NCBI GenBank assembly: GCA_018716225.1
Contig: DVKE01000061.1
Coordinates: forward strand, 1-34,801
Source: Candidatus Onthousia faecigallinarum
GTDB lineage: Bacteria > Bacillota_I > Bacilli_A > RF39 > UBA660
DNA length: 34,801 bases
Reading direction: 5' to 3'
The translations under genes and the position numbers were made by a program. The notes beneath the pieces were generated by a model. That model was not told the origin of the DNA. It made no database searches and was given only the letters and a program-made list of their open reading frames with translations. Below, one piece after another: positions 6,112-34,190 of the stretch. Numbering within the stretch: the stretch's first letter is position 1; each line of letters starts with the position of its first letter.

Positions 6112-7203
6112 CTATTCATGACCTGCTCTTGATATATTTAAAAGAATTCCTACACTTACCATGCTAATTAATAGAGAACTTCCGCCATAGGATAAAAATG
6201 GTAAGGTTACCCCTGTTACCGGGATTAAACCAATTACAACTGCCAAATTCATACCAGCTTGAAAAATCATTTGAAAAACCATTCCAAACGAAAGGTATTT
6301 GGCAAAAAGATTTTGAGAGTGCAAAGCAATTTTTACGCCTCGATATAAAATAAAAGCAAAAAGTACACAAACAAGGATACAGCCAATCACCCCAAATTCT
6401 TCACAAATAATAGAAAAAATAAAATCCGTCTGGGGTTCTGGAAGATAAAAATGTTTTTGACGAGATTGTAGAAAGCCTTGTCCTAATAGTCCTCCGGGTC
6501 CAATGGCATACATGGATTGGATCATTTGAAAGCCTGTTCCTAGCGGATCCGCCCAAGGATCCAAAAAGGAAGTAATACGATCCATTCGATAAGGAGCGAT
6601 CGCTATTAAAATACAAACGCCAACACAACCTAAAATTCCCATGCCATAGAAAAACTTCATATTGACTCCTGCCACAAACAAAAGAGCGATCACACTCATC
6701 ATTAAGACAAGACCCGTTCCAAGATCTGGTTGTAACATAATCAGCCCAAAACAAACAATCGCTACTCCTAAAATGGGAAGTACTCCTTGTTTATAACTTT
6801 TCAAAAACTTATTACTACGCACGAGATAACGACTAGTAAAAATAATGATCGCTAACTTAGCCGCTTCACTTGGTTGGATTCCAAAAGGTCCAATTCCAAA
6901 CCAAGACCGACTTCCATTACGAACACTACCAATACCGGGAATTAAAACGAATATCAATAATAAAAAGCAAATACCTAATATGATATTTGCCTTTTTTTCA
7001 TATACTTTGTAATCTATCTTTGAAACAATGTACATTATGATAAATCCTGCTACGGTAAATAATGCTTGCTGTTTCACATAGTGAAAACTATCTTGAAACT
7101 TATATTCTGCCCAAATGCTAGAAGCAGAATAAATCATTATGAGTCCAAATATTATTAGAAGTGTTACGGCGATTACCAAAGGCAAATCAACCTTTTTCTT
7201 CAC
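6112..7203 (-). CDS. ftsW: FtsW/SpoVE-type SEDS peptidoglycan polymerase
   Basis: The 363-residue integral membrane protein belongs to the SEDS family, which polymerises lipid II into glycan strands together with a class B penicillin-binding protein. About ten membrane segments are visible. Family signatures are NGSRSWFGIGPFGIQPSE (96-113), QPDLGT (158-163), DPWADPLGTGFQ (215-226), the loop PEPQTDFIFS (255-264) with D260 at the position of the catalytic aspartate of RodA, and the C-terminal PFLSYGGSS. The start is GTG at 7201-7203 after AAAGGGTGA. It follows mraY by 17 nt, so the two are one operon. FtsW, SpoVE and RodA are hard to tell apart by sequence; the mraY linkage, as in the dcw cluster, favours FtsW or SpoVE, and the shape-determining RodA is less likely. 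Confidence 0.93.
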   Translation of the reverse strand: MKKKVDLPLVIAVTLLIIFGLIMIYSASSIWAEYKFQDSFHYVKQQALFTVAGFIIMYIVSKIDYKVYEKKANIILGICFLLLIFVLIPGIGSVRNGSRSWFGIGPFGIQPSEAAKLAIIIFTSRYLVRSNKFLKSYKQGVLPILGVAIVCFGLIMLQPDLGTGLVLMMSVIALLFVAGVNMKFFYGMGILGCVGVCILIAIAPYRMDRITSFLDPWADPLGTGFQMIQSMYAIGPGGLLGQGFLQSRQKHFYLPEPQTDFIFSIICEEFGVIGCILVCVLFAFILYRGVKIALHSQNLFAKYLSFGMVFQMIFQAGMNLAVVIGLIPVTGVTLPFLSYGGSSLLISMVSVGILLNISRAGHE

Positions 7204-11395: not shown

Positions 11396-13595
11396 TTTCT
11401 AATTCCTCCTTTGACAATTGACTCTCGGCAATCTCCCGATAAACCTCACAAGTTTTTAATAACTCTTCATGACGTCCGATTCCCACAACTTTTCCTTCAT
11501 TAAGAACCACAATTTGATCAGCTTTCATGATTGTATTAATTCGTTGGGCTACAATGAAGATAGTCGCATCCTTGGCATTTTCATAAAGAGCTTTTCGAAG
11601 TAAGTAATCAGTTTTAAAATCAAGAGCCGAAAAACTATCATCAAAAATGTAAATCTCAGGATCCATCGCTACGGCTCTGGCAATCGATAGACGTTGTTTT
11701 TGTCCACCTGAAACATTGGTTCCTCCTTGACTGATCTCACTTTGATAGCCTTTCTTCTTTTCCAAAATAAAGTCTTCGGCTTGCGCAATTTGCGCTGCTT
11801 TCTTCATTTGCTCATCGGACATATTCTCATCACTAAATTTGATATTGCTTTCAATCGTACCCGAGAATAAAATTCCTTTTTGCGGAACATAACCAATTTT
11901 ATGATGTAAATCTTTTAATAAAACGTCTTTGACATTAATACCATCAACTAGTACTTCTCCTTTGGTGACATCATAAAGACGAGGAATCAAGTTAATCAAG
12001 GTACTCTTTCCGGAACCAGTACTACCAATAAAGGCCGTCGTTGTTCCTTTGGTTGCCTTAAAACTGATATCGGTTAAGACATCTTCATCGCTATCAGGAT
12101 AACGGAAGGATACATTTTTAAATTCCACTTCCCCTTGAATTCTTTTACTAAAGGTTTTCGGACGAGTTGGATCTTTAATCGATTCATCCTCTTCTAACAC
12201 TTCCATAATACGACTCGCAGAGACATTCGCTCTTGGTAGTAAAATAGAGAACATACTAATCATTAAGAAAGCCATAATGATCTGCATTGCATATTGAATA
12301 AATGCTAGCATATCCCCAACTTGAATCAAGCCTTGATCAATACCATGGGCTCCATTCCAGATAATTAAAATACAAATTCCATTCATCGTAAACATCATAG
12401 TTGGCATCATAACATTCATAACGCGGTTAACAAATAAGTTTGTTTTCTTTAAATCCACATTGGCTTTATCAAAACGTTCTTCCTCATATTTTTGATTACT
12501 AAAAGCCCTGATAACTGGAATTCCGGTAATAATTTCTCTTGTCACTTGGTTCAAGCGATCCAAAAGTTTTTGGACTTTCTTGAATTTTGGCATAGCTACA
12601 GCAAACAAAGTAATAACAATCGTGAAGACTACCGCAATTCCCACCCAAATAATCCACGTCATGGATGGCGCTGTCGTTAATACTTTTCTTACCGCACCCA
12701 AAGCTAGTATTGGGGCATAAATAAGAAGACGAAGAGTCATGACGATCATTAATTGTACCTGCTGAACATCATTGGTATTTCTGGTAATCAAAGAGGAAAT
12801 TCCAAACTTCTTATATTCCGCTCTTGAAAAACGTAAGGCTTTATCAAACTCCGCTTTCCGTACTCTTTTCGCCAAAGAAGCTCCGATTCTTGAAGCAAGT
12901 AACGATACACTAATCGTTAAGCCCATACTAAGAAGAGCAACCCCTAACATCTTAAGACCAGAAACTAAGATATAATCACTTTGAATCTTATCGGTATTTA
13001 CCCCGATCTCTTTGTATTCACTTCGAATAAAACTAGTGGCACTTTGACTCACAATGGTATCTGGCATTTCTTTAAATTGATCTTGAATATTTTTTCGCAT
13101 CGAAGAAAGATCATCTTCAGGCATCATTTTAATAATATCAATCAAATTCATCTGTTGCATTTCACTTGGAAGATTTTCCTTCATCTTTTCTTGAACAGCA
13201 ACACCTTCTTGTTCATCGGTTGTCATCATATAATCAACTAACATCGCCCGTTCAAAATCTGTATTTTCATAATCCTCATTGTCTAGGACATAAATATCTT
13301 CTTTCTCTAAGATATCATAAGGATATTCATCACTTTTCTTCGTAACTAAAGTATAATTCTTTAAGATATCTTGCCTTTCACTTGGATCGACAAAAAGAAG
13401 AATTTCTTCCAACTTACTTTTCCGAATTAACTTAGGAATGGTCTCTTCAATTCCTCCTTGCTGTACACCTACATTAATAATACGCGATGTATAATCTGGT
13501 AACGCCAGATCACAATTTACTTGAAAAATAAGTAGTACAACAATCAAAAGAATCTGAAACACATTCTTCTTTAGAAATTTAAGCAGTCTTAACAT
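11376..13595 (-). CDS. ABC exporter half-transporter with degenerate site
   Basis: The 739-residue subunit has one membrane helix at the N-terminus, then an acidic extracellular insert of about 145 residues (about 45-190), then the remaining helices and the nucleotide-binding domain. Walker A is GSTGSGKST (524-532) and the signature VSGGQK (629-632) is canonical, but Walker B reads IYIFDD, with Asp653 in place of the catalytic Glu, and the switch His is Gln684 (VAQR). This is the pattern of the non-hydrolysing site in heterodimeric exporters. The large insert between the first two helices is common in the Firmicutes members. The start overlaps the end of the TetR gene by 17 nt, with AAGGATGATG upstream. 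Substrate unknown. Confidence 0.94.
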   Translation of the reverse strand: MLRLLKFLKKNVFQILLIVVLLIFQVNCDLALPDYTSRIINVGVQQGGIEETIPKLIRKSKLEEILLFVDPSERQDILKNYTLVTKKSDEYPYDILEKEDIYVLDNEDYENTDFERAMLVDYMMTTDEQEGVAVQEKMKENLPSEMQQMNLIDIIKMMPEDDLSSMRKNIQDQFKEMPDTIVSQSATSFIRSEYKEIGVNTDKIQSDYILVSGLKMLGVALLSMGLTISVSLLASRIGASLAKRVRKAEFDKALRFSRAEYKKFGISSLITRNTNDVQQVQLMIVMTLRLLIYAPILALGAVRKVLTTAPSMTWIIWVGIAVVFTIVITLFAVAMPKFKKVQKLLDRLNQVTREIITGIPVIRAFSNQKYEEERFDKANVDLKKTNLFVNRVMNVMMPTMMFTMNGICILIIWNGAHGIDQGLIQVGDMLAFIQYAMQIIMAFLMISMFSILLPRANVSASRIMEVLEEDESIKDPTRPKTFSKRIQGEVEFKNVSFRYPDSDEDVLTDISFKATKGTTTAFIGSTGSGKSTLINLIPRLYDVTKGEVLVDGINVKDVLLKDLHHKIGYVPQKGILFSGTIESNIKFSDENMSDEQMKKAAQIAQAEDFILEKKKGYQSEISQGGTNVSGGQKQRLSIARAVAMDPEIYIFDDSFSALDFKTDYLLRKALYENAKDATIFIVAQRINTIMKADQIVVLNEGKVVGIGRHEELLKTCEVYREIAESQLSKEELENGQSTN

Positions 13596-14208
13596 CTACA
13601 TCATCCTTTCTACAAACTCCATCTTTTAAAAGAAGAAGCTGTTCACTAAAATCTTGTAATACCACATCAACCTTTTCCTTTTGATGTAATATTCGAAATG
13701 AGTTTCGCATCATAAGATGAAATACTTGCATGCATAAAATTTTAAAATGTTTTTGAGCAAGTGGGGTAAAGTCTTTTTTTTGAATTAGTTTTTCCAAACG
13801 CTCAAAAGATTGTAAAACGACTTTTCGTTTTCGTTGGGCACTCTCTTCATAAAAGTTTGTATTTTCAATGATTCGTTTCATAAAAGCTCGATTCTCTTCT
13901 AAGGAACAAAACACTAGGGCCTTAGCAAAAAAAGCATTACAGGCAGGGAAAAAATTTCCCTTTTGTTCCCTTAAAGTCTCTTCTAAGAGCAAGAATCCTT
14001 GTGATAAATAACGATCAATTAAATAGAAATACAACTCTTCTTTGCCTTTAAAATACATATAAAAGCTTCCTCTAGAAATACCAGCCTTTTTTATAATTTG
14101 ATTTAGGGAAACGGAATCATAAGAGTATTTCGTAAATTCCTCCTTAGCAGCCCCTAATAACTTTTCTTGTTTTTCCAAAGGAAGTCTTAAAAAAGTATCA
14201 CTTGGCAC
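13579..14208 (-). CDS. TetR family repressor of the ABC exporter operon
   Basis: This 209-residue regulator has the TetR helix-turn-helix (SLNQIIKKAGISRGSFYMYF, about 34-53) and an all-helical ligand-binding domain. I start it at the GTG at 14206-14208: AAGGTGA lies 4 nt upstream, family members often begin with (M)PSDTF..LP, and the predicted transcript starts at about 14231, which would leave the longer ATG at 14229 without a leader. It overlaps the first exporter gene by 17 nt. A perfect palindrome inside its promoter (14244-14260) is the likely operator, so it should repress itself and both exporter genes until a ligand binds. Confidence 0.9.
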   Translation of the reverse strand: MPSDTFLRLPLEKQEKLLGAAKEEFTKYSYDSVSLNQIIKKAGISRGSFYMYFKGKEELYFYLIDRYLSQGFLLLEETLREQKGNFFPACNAFFAKALVFCSLEENRAFMKRIIENTNFYEESAQRKRKVVLQSFERLEKLIQKKDFTPLAQKHFKILCMQVFHLMMRNSFRILHQKEKVDVVLQDFSEQLLLLKDGVCRKDDVDVKTA

Positions 14209-14237
14209 TTTTATCACCTTCTTAAGCATGCCACCTC

Positions 14238-14267
14238 ATTATATGTGACAACCTGTCACATTGTCAA
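14238..14267 (-). promoter_or_regulatory. Promoter and TetR operator of the exporter operon
   Basis: Minus strand: perfect TTGACA (14262-14267), 18-nt spacer, perfect TATAAT (14238-14243). The spacer holds the inverted repeat TGTGACA-ACC-TGTCACA (plus strand 14244-14260), which fills it almost completely. A protein bound there would block RNA polymerase. Confidence 0.85.
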
Positions 14268-14287
14268 CCAAATTCTTAAATTTTTGC

Positions 14288-14481
14288 AAAAAAAAATCCA
14301 AAGAAGCGTTCGAAGACTAACGATAAAACCTATACCTATGTACAGGTGGGTGCACATAGTCTACCTTCTAGGATCCCTAATCATAAGAAAAGGTCTTCAA
14401 CACAGGTAAGACAATCATCAGCGCTCCCGTATCGTTTCTTTAGTCGGTTTTATACTTGTGTCCATCACGACTTCTTTAGAC
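14288..14481 (-). ncRNA. Structured RNA of about 194 nt, family unassigned
   Basis: No ORF fills this stretch, yet it has everything an independent RNA gene needs. A promoter at 14488-14516 predicts a start at about 14481. The 5' end TCTAAAGAAG (14471-14480) pairs over 10 bp with the 3' end CTTCTTTGGA (14297-14306), and nine U residues follow (14288-14296). Inside, GACTAA and CGATA near the 5' side pair with TATCG and TTAGTC near the 3' side, and CTATGTGCA/TGTACATAG forms a 9-bp hairpin with a six-base loop. Size and closed-rod outline fit 6S RNA, and the raiA-type RNAs are another option, but I cannot match a consensus. It lacks the signatures of SRP RNA, tmRNA and RNase P. Confidence 0.6.
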
Positions 14482-14487
14482 AATTAA

Positions 14488-14516
14488 AGTATAGCAAGAA
14501 AAAGGAAAAATAGCAA
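14488..14516 (-). promoter_or_regulatory. Promoter of the 194-nt RNA
   Basis: Minus strand: TTGCTA (14511-14516), 17-nt spacer, TATACT (14488-14493). The predicted start falls at the 5' base of the RNA closing helix. Confidence 0.75.
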
Positions 14517-14520
14517 GGCA

Positions 14521-14546
14521 AAAAGAAAAGAAGAATTTCCCTTTTC
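14521..14546 (-). terminator. Terminator of the TPR gene pair
   Basis: Minus strand: GAAAAGGG pairs with TTCTTTTC (14525-14546, two G-U pairs) and a short U-run follows. It lies between the TPR operon and the RNA promoter. Confidence 0.5.
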
Positions 14547-14553
14547 ATTTATA

Positions 14554-16053
14554 TTATTTTACCAATTCTTTCCCCTTCTCTTCAAAAAGATCTTGCTTTA
14601 ATTTCTTTTCGACTTCTTCTAAGCGAAGAGCTGCTTCGGAATCAAGTTTTCCTCCAAAGTAGAAAGCTTTTTTCATAATAGGAATAGCATCACAAGAATA
14701 GCCTAACTGATCTAACGTTTCTAACTGTTTTAAGCGTAAAAAACTCTTGGCTTGATCCACTCCTAGCTCTTGATAAAAAGAAACAAGATAACATGGTAAT
14801 AGAGAAGTTGGCTTATCTTCTTGCATAAGAATAGAAAACGTCTTAGTTACTTCCTCAAAATCAGAATCTTCTTCCAACAAAGAATATCTTAAAGAATCCA
14901 TCACAATATCTTGATATTTTTCTTTGCCTTTTTCTTGAAGAAGCGAAGAAATGACTTTTATTCCTTTTTGATATTCTCCTTGTTGTAATAAAAGTATGGC
15001 ATTTAAAGAAGTATTTTCTTCCTTGTCTTCTTCTTTTAATTTTACAGGAGAAATTTTGGTATGAGGTGCTGATAAATTAACTTTTTTCTGTAAAGTAACC
15101 GTATCTCGCAAGATGTCTTCTAGTAAGATGACATCCCGAAGTTCTTTTTCGACATATTCTGAAACTTTATCAAAATGATTGGTTTCCACCAAAGAGAAGA
15201 GATCTGTTTTTTCAGTAGGAGACTTTGGCAATGGTTGCTCTCCTTCTAATAGCACATGTTTTTGAGCTATTTTTAACATCAAACTTTGTTCTAATGACAA
15301 TAATCCACATTTGTCTTCTTTCTGAGAAAGAGAAGTAACAATAGAAGCATAATCCCCCTTTTGATAATAATAAGTTAACTGTTTTTCCTCGATCCTCTCC
15401 CTTTTTTTGTTTGCTAAAAGCAACTGTTTCATAGCCATAACTTGTGCATCCATACGGTATGGCCCATAAATGAAGGAAGAGTTAAGGGAATGATAAGCCG
15501 TATCAAATTGACGCGCTAACACGGCTTTTCGAACAGCTTCTTTCGCTGCCAAACTATCATTGTCTTCTCTTCCCAAAGAAAAATAACTCTTTTGCAACAC
15601 TTCTTTCTCTTTCAAAGGAGAATCAACTAAATTAGCTAATAATACAAAAAACATTTCGTTATAGCACCTAGCAACTGCATTCTGCTTACTCTTATCTTGA
15701 TAAAGAGGTTCCAAATACGAAAGAGCCTTCTCATAATCTTGCGTGGATATCGAGTATAAAAACAAATGGAACAAGCAATTAGGGCCTTCGTATCCTAATT
15801 CATAACTTTTCTTAAAATAAGCAGCCGCATCTTTAAACTTTTTTCCCCGATTCAAAGCAAGCGCTTTTTCATAAAAGAAAGAGCCATCTGAAAGATTATA
15901 ATACCCAGGTTGAATTTGACACAAAGTCCCTTCTTCTAACATTGCTTCAACTTGAGAAGAAGAAAATTCAAGAGATACCAAATCACTATCCTTTATTTCG
16001 TCTTTTTCAATCAATAAAGACAAAATCCCATCTAATTTTTCCACCGAAATCAT
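14554..16053 (-). CDS. TPR-like repeat protein, 499 residues
   Basis: The product is soluble, helical and rich in Leu, Lys, Glu and Tyr. Tetratricopeptide-like pairs are visible, for example YEKALALNRGKKFKDAAAYF and DYEKALSYLEPLY in the first 120 residues, and QQGEYQKGIKVISSLL near 370. No catalytic motif is seen. The ATG at 16053 overlaps the stop of the upstream gene as ATGA and has GGGGGTG upstream, so its translation is coupled; a longer frame to 16083 lacks support. Together with the upstream gene it probably forms a scaffold or a two-component helical-repeat pair. I recognise no named family and claim no pathway. Confidence 0.75.
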   Translation of the reverse strand: MISVEKLDGILSLLIEKDEIKDSDLVSLEFSSSQVEAMLEEGTLCQIQPGYYNLSDGSFFYEKALALNRGKKFKDAAAYFKKSYELGYEGPNCLFHLFLYSISTQDYEKALSYLEPLYQDKSKQNAVARCYNEMFFVLLANLVDSPLKEKEVLQKSYFSLGREDNDSLAAKEAVRKAVLARQFDTAYHSLNSSFIYGPYRMDAQVMAMKQLLLANKKRERIEEKQLTYYYQKGDYASIVTSLSQKEDKCGLLSLEQSLMLKIAQKHVLLEGEQPLPKSPTEKTDLFSLVETNHFDKVSEYVEKELRDVILLEDILRDTVTLQKKVNLSAPHTKISPVKLKEEDKEENTSLNAILLLQQGEYQKGIKVISSLLQEKGKEKYQDIVMDSLRYSLLEEDSDFEEVTKTFSILMQEDKPTSLLPCYLVSFYQELGVDQAKSFLRLKQLETLDQLGYSCDAIPIMKKAFYFGGKLDSEAALRLEEVEKKLKQDLFEEKGKELVK

Positions 16054-17033
16054 TCTTTCACCCCCATTTTCTTTTGATAACAATATCCCTCTTTATTAAA
16101 ATCCTTCGATAAAGAAATTGGATACATCGTGATAATTTCTTCTTGATTAAAAACAACCACGGCTTCTATATCAGAACTAATTTTCCCATCCATCATTCCA
16201 ATTGGTGTTTCCATTGGAATCGCATACATACTATCTTGAGCAAAATAGATAGGTCGGCTAGCTTGTATTTTATTACGCACAACATCATATAATTTTTCAT
16301 AATCGGTCAAAGCAAAAAAGGAAGCAAATTCATTTCGATTCATAGCATTTCCTAGTTCATGCTTTTTGATATGTTGAGTAGCCATTTCTTTATTCTGTTC
16401 CGGATGTAAAATAATGTTATGTCGATAATTATCAAAAGCAATCTCTGGACTTTCCTCCAAGTTTAATTTTTTACAAATAAACTGAGAATAATAATTATAC
16501 CAAGCCCTAACTTGTTTATCTTGTAAACGAAGAGGATCGATCCGATTTAACTGGTAAAAAGCTTTCTCATAATCACCAGTTAAAATATCTAATTGAATCA
16601 ATCTTTGAAAGGCTTTAAAGTAATATTCCTGATCAAATAAAAGGGAAGAAGCTATTTTACGAGCAGTTTCATATTCTCCCGTATTCAAAAAATTTTCCAC
16701 TAATAATTTTAGGCCTTCTATTTGATTGTTGTCTTTTTGCATGAAAGAATAAATTGTCTTTTCGGCTGTTTTAAAATTATACTCATTTGTCTCAAGATTA
16801 CAATGAAGTTTTAAAAAATATGGTTCTTGCGAATCGATTTCTTCTAAAATCGTTCTAGCTTCTTGATAAAGGCTTAATTTTAAATCCAATTGAACAAGAC
16901 GATAACCGATCGCTTCTCTCTTATCTCCTTCCCGATAAAGCTCTAAATAACATTTTCTAGCGTTGGTCCAGTCTCCTTGATTAAAATATTCTTTCGCTTG
17001 CCCTTCTAATTGTTCTTTTAACTCTGTTGTCAT
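16050..17033 (-). CDS. TPR protein with an extra C-terminal domain, 327 residues
   Basis: Residues 1-190 are TPR-like helical pairs (for example AKEYFNQGDWTNARKCYLEL and NFLNTGEYETARKIASSLL). The last ~110 residues differ: a short helical linker, then a beta-rich segment with RPIYFAQDSMYAIPMETP and DIEAVVVFNQEEIITMYPIS, which could be a small ligand- or protein-binding domain. I do not recognise it. The start ATG at 17033 has an AAGGGGG motif 10 nt upstream and a good promoter (17067-17095). The stop overlaps the next TPR gene by 4 nt, so the two proteins are likely made in equal amounts and may work together. Confidence 0.75.
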   Translation of the reverse strand: MTTELKEQLEGQAKEYFNQGDWTNARKCYLELYREGDKREAIGYRLVQLDLKLSLYQEARTILEEIDSQEPYFLKLHCNLETNEYNFKTAEKTIYSFMQKDNNQIEGLKLLVENFLNTGEYETARKIASSLLFDQEYYFKAFQRLIQLDILTGDYEKAFYQLNRIDPLRLQDKQVRAWYNYYSQFICKKLNLEESPEIAFDNYRHNIILHPEQNKEMATQHIKKHELGNAMNRNEFASFFALTDYEKLYDVVRNKIQASRPIYFAQDSMYAIPMETPIGMMDGKISSDIEAVVVFNQEEIITMYPISLSKDFNKEGYCYQKKMGVKE

Positions 17034-17095: not shown

Positions 17096-17159
17096 ATTTC
17101 TTTGCTTCCAAAGCGCACAAGAAAAATTTGAAAAGCATATTTTACTATAGGTGATTATC

Positions 17160-17921
17160 ATGAATCTTACCTATCAAAATATTATTTTGCATTATGAAAC
17201 CTATGGAGACAAAAAAGAAGTCATTGTTATCTTACCAGGCTGGGGCGAGACAAAAAAGTCTTGGGAATGTTTGATTGATATCCTGAGGCTCGATTATACG
17301 GTTTACTTTATAGATTATCCGGGCTTTGGAAAAAGTCCTATTCCGAAAAAGACACTTACGATGTTTGATTATGCGGAACTCATTCAATATTTTTTGGAAG
17401 TAAACAAAATAAAAAAGCCAAATGTCATCGCTCACTCTTTTGGAGGTCGAATTGCTATTTTATTATCGAGTAAATATGGGATTTATATGCAAAAACTAAT
17501 TTTGATTGACAGTGCTGGGATCAAGCCAAAAAAGACTTTAAAATCAAGATTTTGCCAATTTTCTTACAAATTTTTACAAGGTCTAGCAGACTTTCTTCCT
17601 AAAAAAATAAGAACCAAAGTAAAAACTTATCTTTTTCAAAAATTTTCCTCGACAGACTATTTAAACTTAAAAGAAGAAATGCGCGAAACGTTCAAAAACA
17701 TTGTCAATCTAGATCTTACTCCCTATCTTCCTTACGTTCAAAATAAAACTCTACTTCTTTGGGGTGAATATGATCAAGATACTCCTTTAAAAGATGGTAT
17801 TAAAATGAACAAAAAAATAAGAGAAAGCGAATTAATCGTTTTCCCTCGTTGTAGTCATTTCTGTTATTTAGAAAATCCTTATGTTATTCTTAAAATTATC
17901 TTAAGCTTTTTGGAGGAGTAA
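17160..17921 (+). CDS. Alpha/beta-fold hydrolase
   Basis: The 253-residue protein has the alpha/beta hydrolase layout: oxyanion-loop PGWGE (26-30), DYPGFGKS (52-59), nucleophile elbow AHSFGG with Ser93, acidic residue in WGEYDQDTP (Asp205), and catalytic His in PRCSHF (His233). A lid-like helical segment with many Lys and Phe (about 128-175) lies between. No signal peptide, so it acts in the cytoplasm. The ATG at 17160 has AGGTGA 5 nt upstream; the GTG three codons earlier falls on that site. Members hydrolyse esters, lactones, peptides or halides; the substrate cannot be told. Its stop codon directly abuts the stop of the convergent DUF2207 gene. Confidence 0.9.
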   Translation: MNLTYQNIILHYETYGDKKEVIVILPGWGETKKSWECLIDILRLDYTVYFIDYPGFGKSPIPKKTLTMFDYAELIQYFLEVNKIKKPNVIAHSFGGRIAILLSSKYGIYMQKLILIDSAGIKPKKTLKSRFCQFSYKFLQGLADFLPKKIRTKVKTYLFQKFSSTDYLNLKEEMRETFKNIVNLDLTPYLPYVQNKTLLLWGEYDQDTPLKDGIKMNKKIRESELIVFPRCSHFCYLENPYVILKIILSFLEE

Positions 17922-31579: not shown

Positions 31580-32443
31580 TTAATTTCCCAGCATTAGTTT
31601 TATAGTGCTTCCGTCTTCTATTCTTTCTCCTGCTTCTGGAGATTGAGATATGACATGCTCCCCTTCTCCTGAATATTCAATTGTAAAATGCTCTAATAAT
31701 TCTTTCGCTTCTTCTTTGGTTTTACCTACAACATTTGGTATTTCATAGTAGACTTTATCGCTCCATTCCCAATCTTTTTCAATTCCTCCTTCTTGTTTGG
31801 GAATATTTAAGGCTTCAATAATATCAAGTAAAATTCTTCTAGCTATTGGTGTAGTGGTATAACTCGAAAGAAGAGCGGTGTTTTTGGGATTATCGATGGC
31901 AATATACAAAACAGCTTGTGGATCATTGCTAGGAACGATTCCAACAAAGGACATAATATAGTTATTGACTAAATAAACGCCATCTTTTACTTTTTGAGCC
32001 GTTCCTGTTTTCCCTCCAATCCGATATCCATCGATATAAGCCGCTTTCCCTCCTCCAAGTGCTACGACACTTTCCAAAGCGTAACGCATGATCTCACTTG
32101 TTTTTTCACTGATTGTCTGTCTGACTATCGTTGTTTCATTTTGATACATAACATTGCCTGTTTCCGGCTCTAAAATGTTTTTTAAGACAAAAGGTTTTAA
32201 AAGACTACCTCCATTTAAAACAGCGGAAATAGCGGTTATTTGTTGGATAGGAGTTACACTGATCCCTTGACCAAAAGCCGTAGTAGCAAGTTCAATATTA
32301 CCTACTTTGGAAAGGGGAAAAATGATCCCTTCCCCTTCTCCATTTAAGTCAATTCCTGTTTTTTTCCCAAATCCGAATTTATCTAAATACGAAAAGAGTC
32401 TTTCCTTTCCTAATAGTTGCCCCATTTTTACAAAACCAGGGTT
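31580..32443 (-). pseudogene. 3' part of a class B PBP gene, split by the element
   Basis: About 287 residues of a penicillin-binding transpeptidase remain, from NPGFVKMGQLLG to the stop. GGKTGTAQK is the KTGT active-site motif, and a PASTA domain ends the protein (IPNVVGKTKEEA to the last residue). In intact class B PBPs, NPGF directly follows the SxN motif, so the gene is cut inside that motif; upstream in the same frame a TAG follows after three codons (32453-32455). The transpeptidase Ser (SxxK) and the pedestal domain must lie beyond the element, off the right edge. A PASTA at the C-terminus fits SpoVD or PBP2b/2x. If SpoVD, the insertion would only matter in spores. Confidence 0.8.
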
Positions 32444-34190
32444 CCTTGGTGTCTAGCAAGAGATACTTTTGTCTTAAAAAATTATTGTCAAAAGACAATC
32501 TCAAGCTATAATCTCTATTTGTAATTTTTGTTTTTGTTTTTTCATCTTTATTATTCATGTTTGAATTATTATTATCTTTTTTGTTATAATCGAGTTCCAT
32601 TTCTTGATCTGGTGTTTTAAAGTTAAATATCATTTGTAATTTCAAATGCTTGCGGTCGTTATTTATTTTGCTAACAAAAACTTTATCAATGAACAAATCA
32701 AAGTATTTACCAATATTTTCTTTTATATTTAATTTTGGAGTTAATAGTTCTCTTATATTATTAGCTATTTCTTCATAATATGATGGGGTTTCTCTATTTG
32801 TTTCACGTTCAATTAAATCTCTTTTTAATGTTGAAATTGTTTCTAATATCTTCTTGTTTTTTTCCATAAATTCTTCATCTGAAATCATTTTTCTTAATGA
32901 CATATCTAATAATCTTTCTTTATAAGTTTCTTGCTCTTTTAATTTTTCTTTTAAAGTTTCTATATTATCATTATCATTGGTTTCTTTAATTAAATGTATA
33001 TAATCTGTTATTATTGTATTTAATAATTTTTCTTTATTATCTATAAATTTTTCTAATACCTCTGTAAATATTTCATCAAGATGCTTTTCAAATAATCTAG
33101 GAGTAGCACAACCCTTGATGCCGTGCCTTAAATATTCATTACATTGCCAAACTGGATTATCTTTTCTTTTACCGCTTGCACTCCTAATAAAAGTTGTATT
33201 ATGCTCCATGCAAAATATTTTTGATGTATATTTTCTATTTTCTAAATAAAATTCCTTATTCAATACATTTGCATTCCAATTACCATTTCTCTTTTTATAT
33301 ATTTCATTACATTTATTCCATAATTCTTCTGATACAATTGGTGGAATATTTCCTTTTTTATCTTTTTCAACTATCCATTCGCTTTCTGGTTTTGCAACTT
33401 TTTTATGAGTTTTATAATCTTGAACTTCGGTTAAATTTGCTGTATAAAAACCTTTGTACCTAGGATTCTTTAACATTTTCTTTAATGTTACATCACTAAA
33501 TATCTTACCCTTTCTAGTATAATAACCATTTTGTGCTAATTTCTCGCCAATTTTTTGAAACCCATATTCTCCTGTTGAATATAAATCGTATAACATTTGA
33601 ACTGCCTTTGCTTCACTTTCAATTATAGTTAATTTTCCATCTTTTTTGCTATAACCATAAAGCCCACCACCACCAACTTTCCTATCTTTAATGCTTCTTC
33701 TAACTCCAAATTTTACTCTTTCAGATAATTTTCTAACCTCATCTTGAGCCATTGATGCCATAAGAGTTAATCTAAATTCACTATCTGGGTAAATAGTGTT
33801 TATATTATCAGATATAAAAAACACTATAACACCATACTGTAATAATAATTGTGTATATTTTATGCTATCAATTGTATTACGAGCAAACCTGGATACCTCT
33901 TTTGTTAAAATCAAGTCAATTTTTCCTAATCTCGCATCTTCAATCATTCTTAAAAATTCTTCTCTTTTATATACCTGTGTACCTGAAATTCCTTCATCAC
34001 TATAACTGGCAACATGAGTCCAACTTTTAACATTGTCAATCATATCATTAAAATAATTAACTTGATTTTCTAATGAGTTTATTTGATCATCTTTATCTGT
34101 AGAAACCCTACCATAATCAGCAACTTTTAAATCCATGTCATATATTGTTTTCCCAAGTATTAATTCTTGTCTCGCTTTGATTATATCCAT
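32379..34190 (-). CDS. Large serine recombinase of a mobile element
   Basis: The 603-residue protein has the resolvase catalytic domain (YGRVSTDKDDQ, nucleophile Ser30; DEGISG at 65-70; SRFARNTID), the recombinase domain (about 170-300), a zinc ribbon (C327, H330, C350, C361) and a coiled coil (about 405-475). Such integrases insert phages and transposable elements at specific sites. The ATG at 34190 has AAAGGAG upstream. The gene lies at the very end of the element and its frame crosses the junction at about 32443: the last ~21 residues, from about residue 583, are encoded by the PBP gene in another frame. Codon use is more A/T-rich than in the neighbours, as expected for acquired DNA. Confidence 0.93.
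   Translation of the reverse strand: MDIIKARQELILGKTIYDMDLKVADYGRVSTDKDDQINSLENQVNYFNDMIDNVKSWTHVASYSDEGISGTQVYKREEFLRMIEDARLGKIDLILTKEVSRFARNTIDSIKYTQLLLQYGVIVFFISDNINTIYPDSEFRLTLMASMAQDEVRKLSERVKFGVRRSIKDRKVGGGGLYGYSKKDGKLTIIESEAKAVQMLYDLYSTGEYGFQKIGEKLAQNGYYTRKGKIFSDVTLKKMLKNPRYKGFYTANLTEVQDYKTHKKVAKPESEWIVEKDKKGNIPPIVSEELWNKCNEIYKKRNGNWNANVLNKEFYLENRKYTSKIFCMEHNTTFIRSASGKRKDNPVWQCNEYLRHGIKGCATPRLFEKHLDEIFTEVLEKFIDNKEKLLNTIITDYIHLIKETNDNDNIETLKEKLKEQETYKERLLDMSLRKMISDEEFMEKNKKILETISTLKRDLIERETNRETPSYYEEIANNIRELLTPKLNIKENIGKYFDLFIDKVFVSKINNDRKHLKLQMIFNFKTPDQEMELDYNKKDNNNSNMNNKDEKTKTKITNRDYSLRLSFDNNFLRQKYLLLDTKEPWFCKNGATIRKGKTLFVFR
32438..32455. other. Probable element/host junction (attachment site)
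   Basis: Here PBP-coding sequence (AACCCTGGTTTTG on the minus strand) meets element sequence. The shared core cannot be defined because the other end is outside the window; the core dinucleotide should lie in about 32440-32447. Confidence 0.6.

Follow-up and report, generated by a model that had tools for sequence, protein, structure and literature searches.

A predicted 6S RNA gene and its relatives in Candidatus Onthousia

Known 6S RNAs and the locus under study

6S RNA (RF00013), a well-known bacterial RNA that sequesters RNA polymerase by imitating an open promoter, is described from E. coli as SsrS and from B. subtilis as 6S-1 (BsrA) and 6S-2 (BsrB). Its 5' central bubble is copied into a short product RNA (pRNA), and synthesis of the pRNA opens the P2 helix and frees the polymerase (PMC8876501). 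A pRNA is recognized by GG at its positions 4/5 or 5/6 and by an A just upstream (PMC8414754). Ms1, another polymerase-associated RNA, is reported to be structurally related to 6S RNA (PMC9130861); it binds core polymerase and is described from Actinobacteria. A scan with the Rfam models produced no Ms1 match at gathering level in the 34,801-nucleotide stretch of Candidatus Onthousia DNA analysed here (the window).

Judged from its sequence, the RNA gene at 14288-14481 on the minus strand is almost certainly a 6S RNA gene, present as a single copy in this genome. It resembles the described 6S RNAs in size, closing stem, central bubble and apical stem, and equally in its P2/template block, 3' bubble hairpin, U-tail and full-length covariance-model match. 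The placement of the 3' hairpin opposite the 5' bubble is that seen in B. subtilis 6S-1 and in lactic acid bacteria. Unlike known 6S RNAs, the members of this genus score low with the Rfam model (approximately 34-55 bits). There is one copy here, whereas B. subtilis has two, and the gene is placed elsewhere than in lactic acid bacteria, where 6S lies between rarA and uspA (PMC8414754).

The RF00013 match spans 14485-14291 (minus strand) and model positions 1-187 of 187, with a score of 48.2 bits (E 7.5e-7) against a gathering score of 46.4 bits, a margin of only 1.8 bits that counts against the identification. No other Rfam family in the window reached gathering level, and this was also the sole 6S match in the whole 1.15-Mb assembly. 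The first-pass annotation had left the RNA unassigned, naming 6S RNA as its first candidate, a raiA-type RNA as another and a new family failing both, with an Infernal search against Rfam as one of the checks. That search returned a known RNA. Since the match is above the gathering score and of full length, and nothing else reached gathering level, the 6S candidate was right, while the raiA and new-family options fall together with the 'unassigned' label.

Size and the earlier suggestion are what speak for a raiA-type or other known structured RNA. We consider this reading most improbable, given that the 6S model matches over its full length and that raiA was matched neither at gathering level anywhere in the window nor at E values up to 1 within 14200-14600; raiA RNA was rejected on these grounds. 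The slim score margin, and the finding that most rescored loci of the genus lie below threshold, would also suit a new RNA family resembling 6S by chance. However, independent family members match and align well with Rfam 6S (61 bits for L007 in genome G036 and 53.7 bits for L011 in G035), and the Rfam cut-off was exceeded in 90 of 146 genomes of the order. A new family was rejected in view of the full-length match above gathering score, and its probability is just as slight as that of a raiA-type RNA. Weak matches to microRNA families just upstream of the RNA were dismissed as chance: they scored 20.6 and 17.4 bits, where the gathering scores are 80 and 72.

Promoter, fold and covariation

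The elements of the locus, in the order in which the minus strand is read, are as follows.

14288-14481, minus strand: 6S RNA gene (ssrS/bsrA type), approximately 194 nt with U-tail; assigned from RF00013, genus-wide conservation and covariation
14511-14516, minus strand: -35-like hexamer TTGCTA, from a promoter scan with a 17-nt spacer; weakly conserved in the genus
14488-14496, minus strand: extended -10 element TGCTATACT, found in 30/30 genus homologues with constant spacing to the RNA
14472-14481, minus strand: 5' strand of the closing helix, GUCUAAAGAA, from the sequence, folding and covariation
14446-14453, minus strand: 5' strand of the P2 helix, AUAAAACC, also part of the pRNA template; invariant in 30 sequences
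14443-14456, plus strand: predicted pRNA, 5'-GUCGGUUUUAUACU, a copy of the 5' central bubble placed by homology and by the invariant template block
14430-14435, minus strand: ACGAUA in the distal 5' central bubble, one arm of a possible central-bubble-collapse helix, from its RNAalifold pairing with UAUCGU and the template-masked fold
14328-14347, minus strand: hairpin in the 3' central bubble, ACCUGUAC-AUAG-GUAUAGGU, from RNAalifold; its five inner pairs are standard in all sequences
14323-14330, minus strand: 3' strand of the P2 helix, GGUUUUAU, invariant in 30 sequences; mean pairing probability approximately 0.8 in the free window RNA
14320-14325, minus strand: UAUCGU, the other arm of the possible collapse helix, from RNAalifold and the template-masked fold
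14297-14306, minus strand: 3' strand of the closing helix, UUCUUUGGAU, from the sequence, folding and covariation
14288-14296, minus strand: terminator tail of nine U following the closing helix, read directly

The -10 hexamer TATACT (14493-14488, minus strand) is preceded by a TG motif and completes a promoter of the form TTGCTA-N17-TATACT. In all 30 genus homologues the extended -10 element stands 5 nt before the UGUCUA of the helix base, and the start predicted approximately 7 nt downstream of the -10 element (14482/14481) coincides with the base of the closing helix. The two strands of this helix, GUCUAAAGAA and UUCUUUGGAU, form 10 pairs, two of them G-U, and from the helix base at 14481 to the last U at 14288 the RNA measures 194 nt. 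No open reading frame of at least 80 amino acids across the gene was present in the ORF list. The first-pass annotation had described a promoter start exactly at the base of a 10-bp helix joining the ends, a 194-nt RNA closed by nine U and a gene free of ORFs; all of this was borne out, on the minus strand.

The 200-nt stretch 14487-14288 folds with -56.9 kcal/mol, against -42.6 +/- 4.1 for shuffled sequences (z -3.5), and 1 of 200 shuffles did as well. Covariation was assessed in 30 genus sequences, 29 of them distinct, on a 6S-type ground-state structure of 51 pairs in which the 3' bubble hairpin was trimmed, since its outer three pairs share bases with P2. In this structure 99.4% of the cells were paired; sliding the partner by one column lowered pairing to at most 44%, a comparison that favours the structure over its slid versions because it was partly derived from the same 30 sequences. 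Two-sided changes were found in 16 of the 51 pairs, where shuffles gave 4.3 and none of 500 reached the observed value, and they occurred in the closing as well as the apical helices; covariation of the stem bases in relatives, proposed as a check at first pass, is thus present.

The fold is the 6S rod, kept by covariation, with a central bubble between closing and apical stems; sequence, structure, conservation and covariation of the RNA were all shown here. Because the extended -10 element recurs in 30/30 sequences at a fixed distance and the helices covary, these elements lie far beyond chance. The P2 helix, named after its counterpart in B. subtilis 6S-1 (PMC8876501), never varies and therefore adds no covariation support of its own to the 6S identity.

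Predicted pRNA and possible collapse helix

The template block AGUAUAAAACCGACUAAA is invariant in the genus alignment. Copied, it would yield a pRNA beginning GUCGGUUUU..., which carries GG at positions 4/5 and an A upstream and so has both hallmarks; by homology, its start is predicted at 14443 on the plus strand. By analogy with the described systems, the RNA would be made from its own housekeeping-type promoter and fold into the 6S rod, which would mimic an open promoter and occupy the RNA polymerase holoenzyme carrying the housekeeping sigma factor. Such occupancy would lower transcription when nutrients are scarce. Once NTPs return, the polymerase would copy the template block into the short pRNA (predicted 5'-GUCGGUUUUAUACU...), and the pRNA would open P2 and let the enzyme go. 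Polymerase binding, pRNA synthesis and release are all carried over here from homologous RNAs.

According to the energy model, the window RNA may behave as a switch. The collapse helix ACGAUA/UAUCGU had a mean probability of 0.16 in the free RNA and 0.93 once the template was masked to imitate bound pRNA, the RNA refolding from P2 (approximately 0.8) to the collapse helix. In approximately 3% of bubble shuffles, the bubble was complementary to the P2 3' strand over a run as long as this. We regard a P2-to-collapse switch of the B. subtilis type in the window RNA as suggestive only. As a trait of the whole genus the full switch was not upheld, since 26 of the 30 sequences favour the collapse helix already in the free RNA.

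In those 26 sequences the modelled mean probability of the collapse helix without pRNA is at least 0.80, the exceptions being the window's sequence, L023, L028 and L034; over all 30 the mean is 0.88 free and 0.93 masked. Taken at face value, these values would describe a 6S RNA with a different release step, in which a collapse helix preformed in most Onthousia species makes for a weaker or faster-releasing polymerase trap. This is unlikely in our estimate: the window's own sequence behaves classically, the P2 strands are 100% kept, energy models are unreliable here and a bound polymerase would favour the open form. It is similarly doubtful that the Onthousia RNAs are a sequence subgroup, often under the Rfam cut-off and with the collapse helix competing in the free RNA, whose trapping and release may be tuned unlike those of B. 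subtilis.

Distribution and genomic surroundings

Homologues of the 6S RNA with 77-86% identity were found in 31 of the 35 genomes of the genus, the window's included. A partial match in a further genome, G019, stops at position 6881, which is also the end of a public record. A distinctive pattern derived from the RNA was found in 32 stretches of public genome records, those with a genus name being Candidatus Onthousia, an uncultured genus that NCBI taxonomy lists as Bacilli incertae sedis. Even a genus model gave no convincing match in G016, G017, G022 and G033; all four are draft assemblies, and gaps are a possible cause.

With strict filters the Rfam model reported only the window's genome and G026 among the 35. 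Other genus members do match RF00013 over its full length, and permissive rescoring of 20 genus loci placed 6 at or above the gathering score and 12 at 34-44 bits, with 2 unlisted at E 0.01. Since the cut-off misses most of the rescored loci (approximately 34-44 bits), 6S RNA is probably under-annotated in Onthousia, and adding its sequences to the RF00013 seed alignment would better the annotation. Our own covariance model, built from 17 sequences, found the RNA in 131 of the 146 order genomes sampled, nearly always as one match each. The Rfam model found it in 120 of the same genomes, the 90 given above exceeding the cut-off. Some genomes were found by one model only; for those compared by eye, the two pointed to the same places.

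6S RNA has thus been retained in most members of an order of gut Bacilli with small genomes (approximately 0.6-1.7 Mb). Because most relatives have it too, the gene in the window is real but ordinary; the RNA is now assigned and opens no new mechanism. Nothing specific emerged from the titles and abstracts of papers that mention 6S RNA together with Mollicutes or Tenericutes, or of those that mention Onthousia. Genome G015 has two copies that score almost equally (233 and 232 bits) and lie on different contigs, L084 (G015:C18:22097-22293) and L088 (G015:C2:36051-36247), which reflect either duplication or contamination, estimated at 5%.

The gene upstream of the RNA is murC-like in the two genus loci that were read, L028 and L039 (TIGR01082 in L039, E 1.3e-95, slightly under the curated cut-off), and in the alignment most members of the genus share this upstream gene end. 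In the window the upstream neighbour encodes a 509-aa protein (14554-16083) that matched nothing in Pfam or NCBIfam; downstream lies a TetR regulator gene (13579-14229). By eye, an alpha/beta-hydrolase-like protein lies near the RNA in the relative L024; the window also has such a gene, at 17151-17921. As the neighbours differ within the genus, the location of the 6S gene has changed, without visible change in the RNA.

Several other features of the window were recorded. The gene at 16050-17033, next to that for the 509-aa protein, had weak TPR matches. Just upstream of the TetR gene is a perfect consensus promoter, TTGACA-N18-TATAAT (12/12; 14238-14267, minus strand), and the TGTGACAACCTGTCACA inverted repeat inside it is likely a TetR operator. 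A SpoVD-like penicillin-binding protein gene appears to be split, with only its C-terminal part (model 346-636) in the window at 31583-32443 (minus strand) and the N-terminal part (model 5-347) on another contig (G000:C48:1624-2637). A large serine recombinase gene at 32379-34190 (minus strand), with below-cut-off matches to CcrC/CcrB/XisF models, overlaps the start of the C-terminal part, and it looks as if a mobile element inserted in the SpoVD-like gene. The same genome carries a second, near-full-length gene of the SpoVD/PBP family (L096, C6:437-2356), which may make the split copy dispensable.
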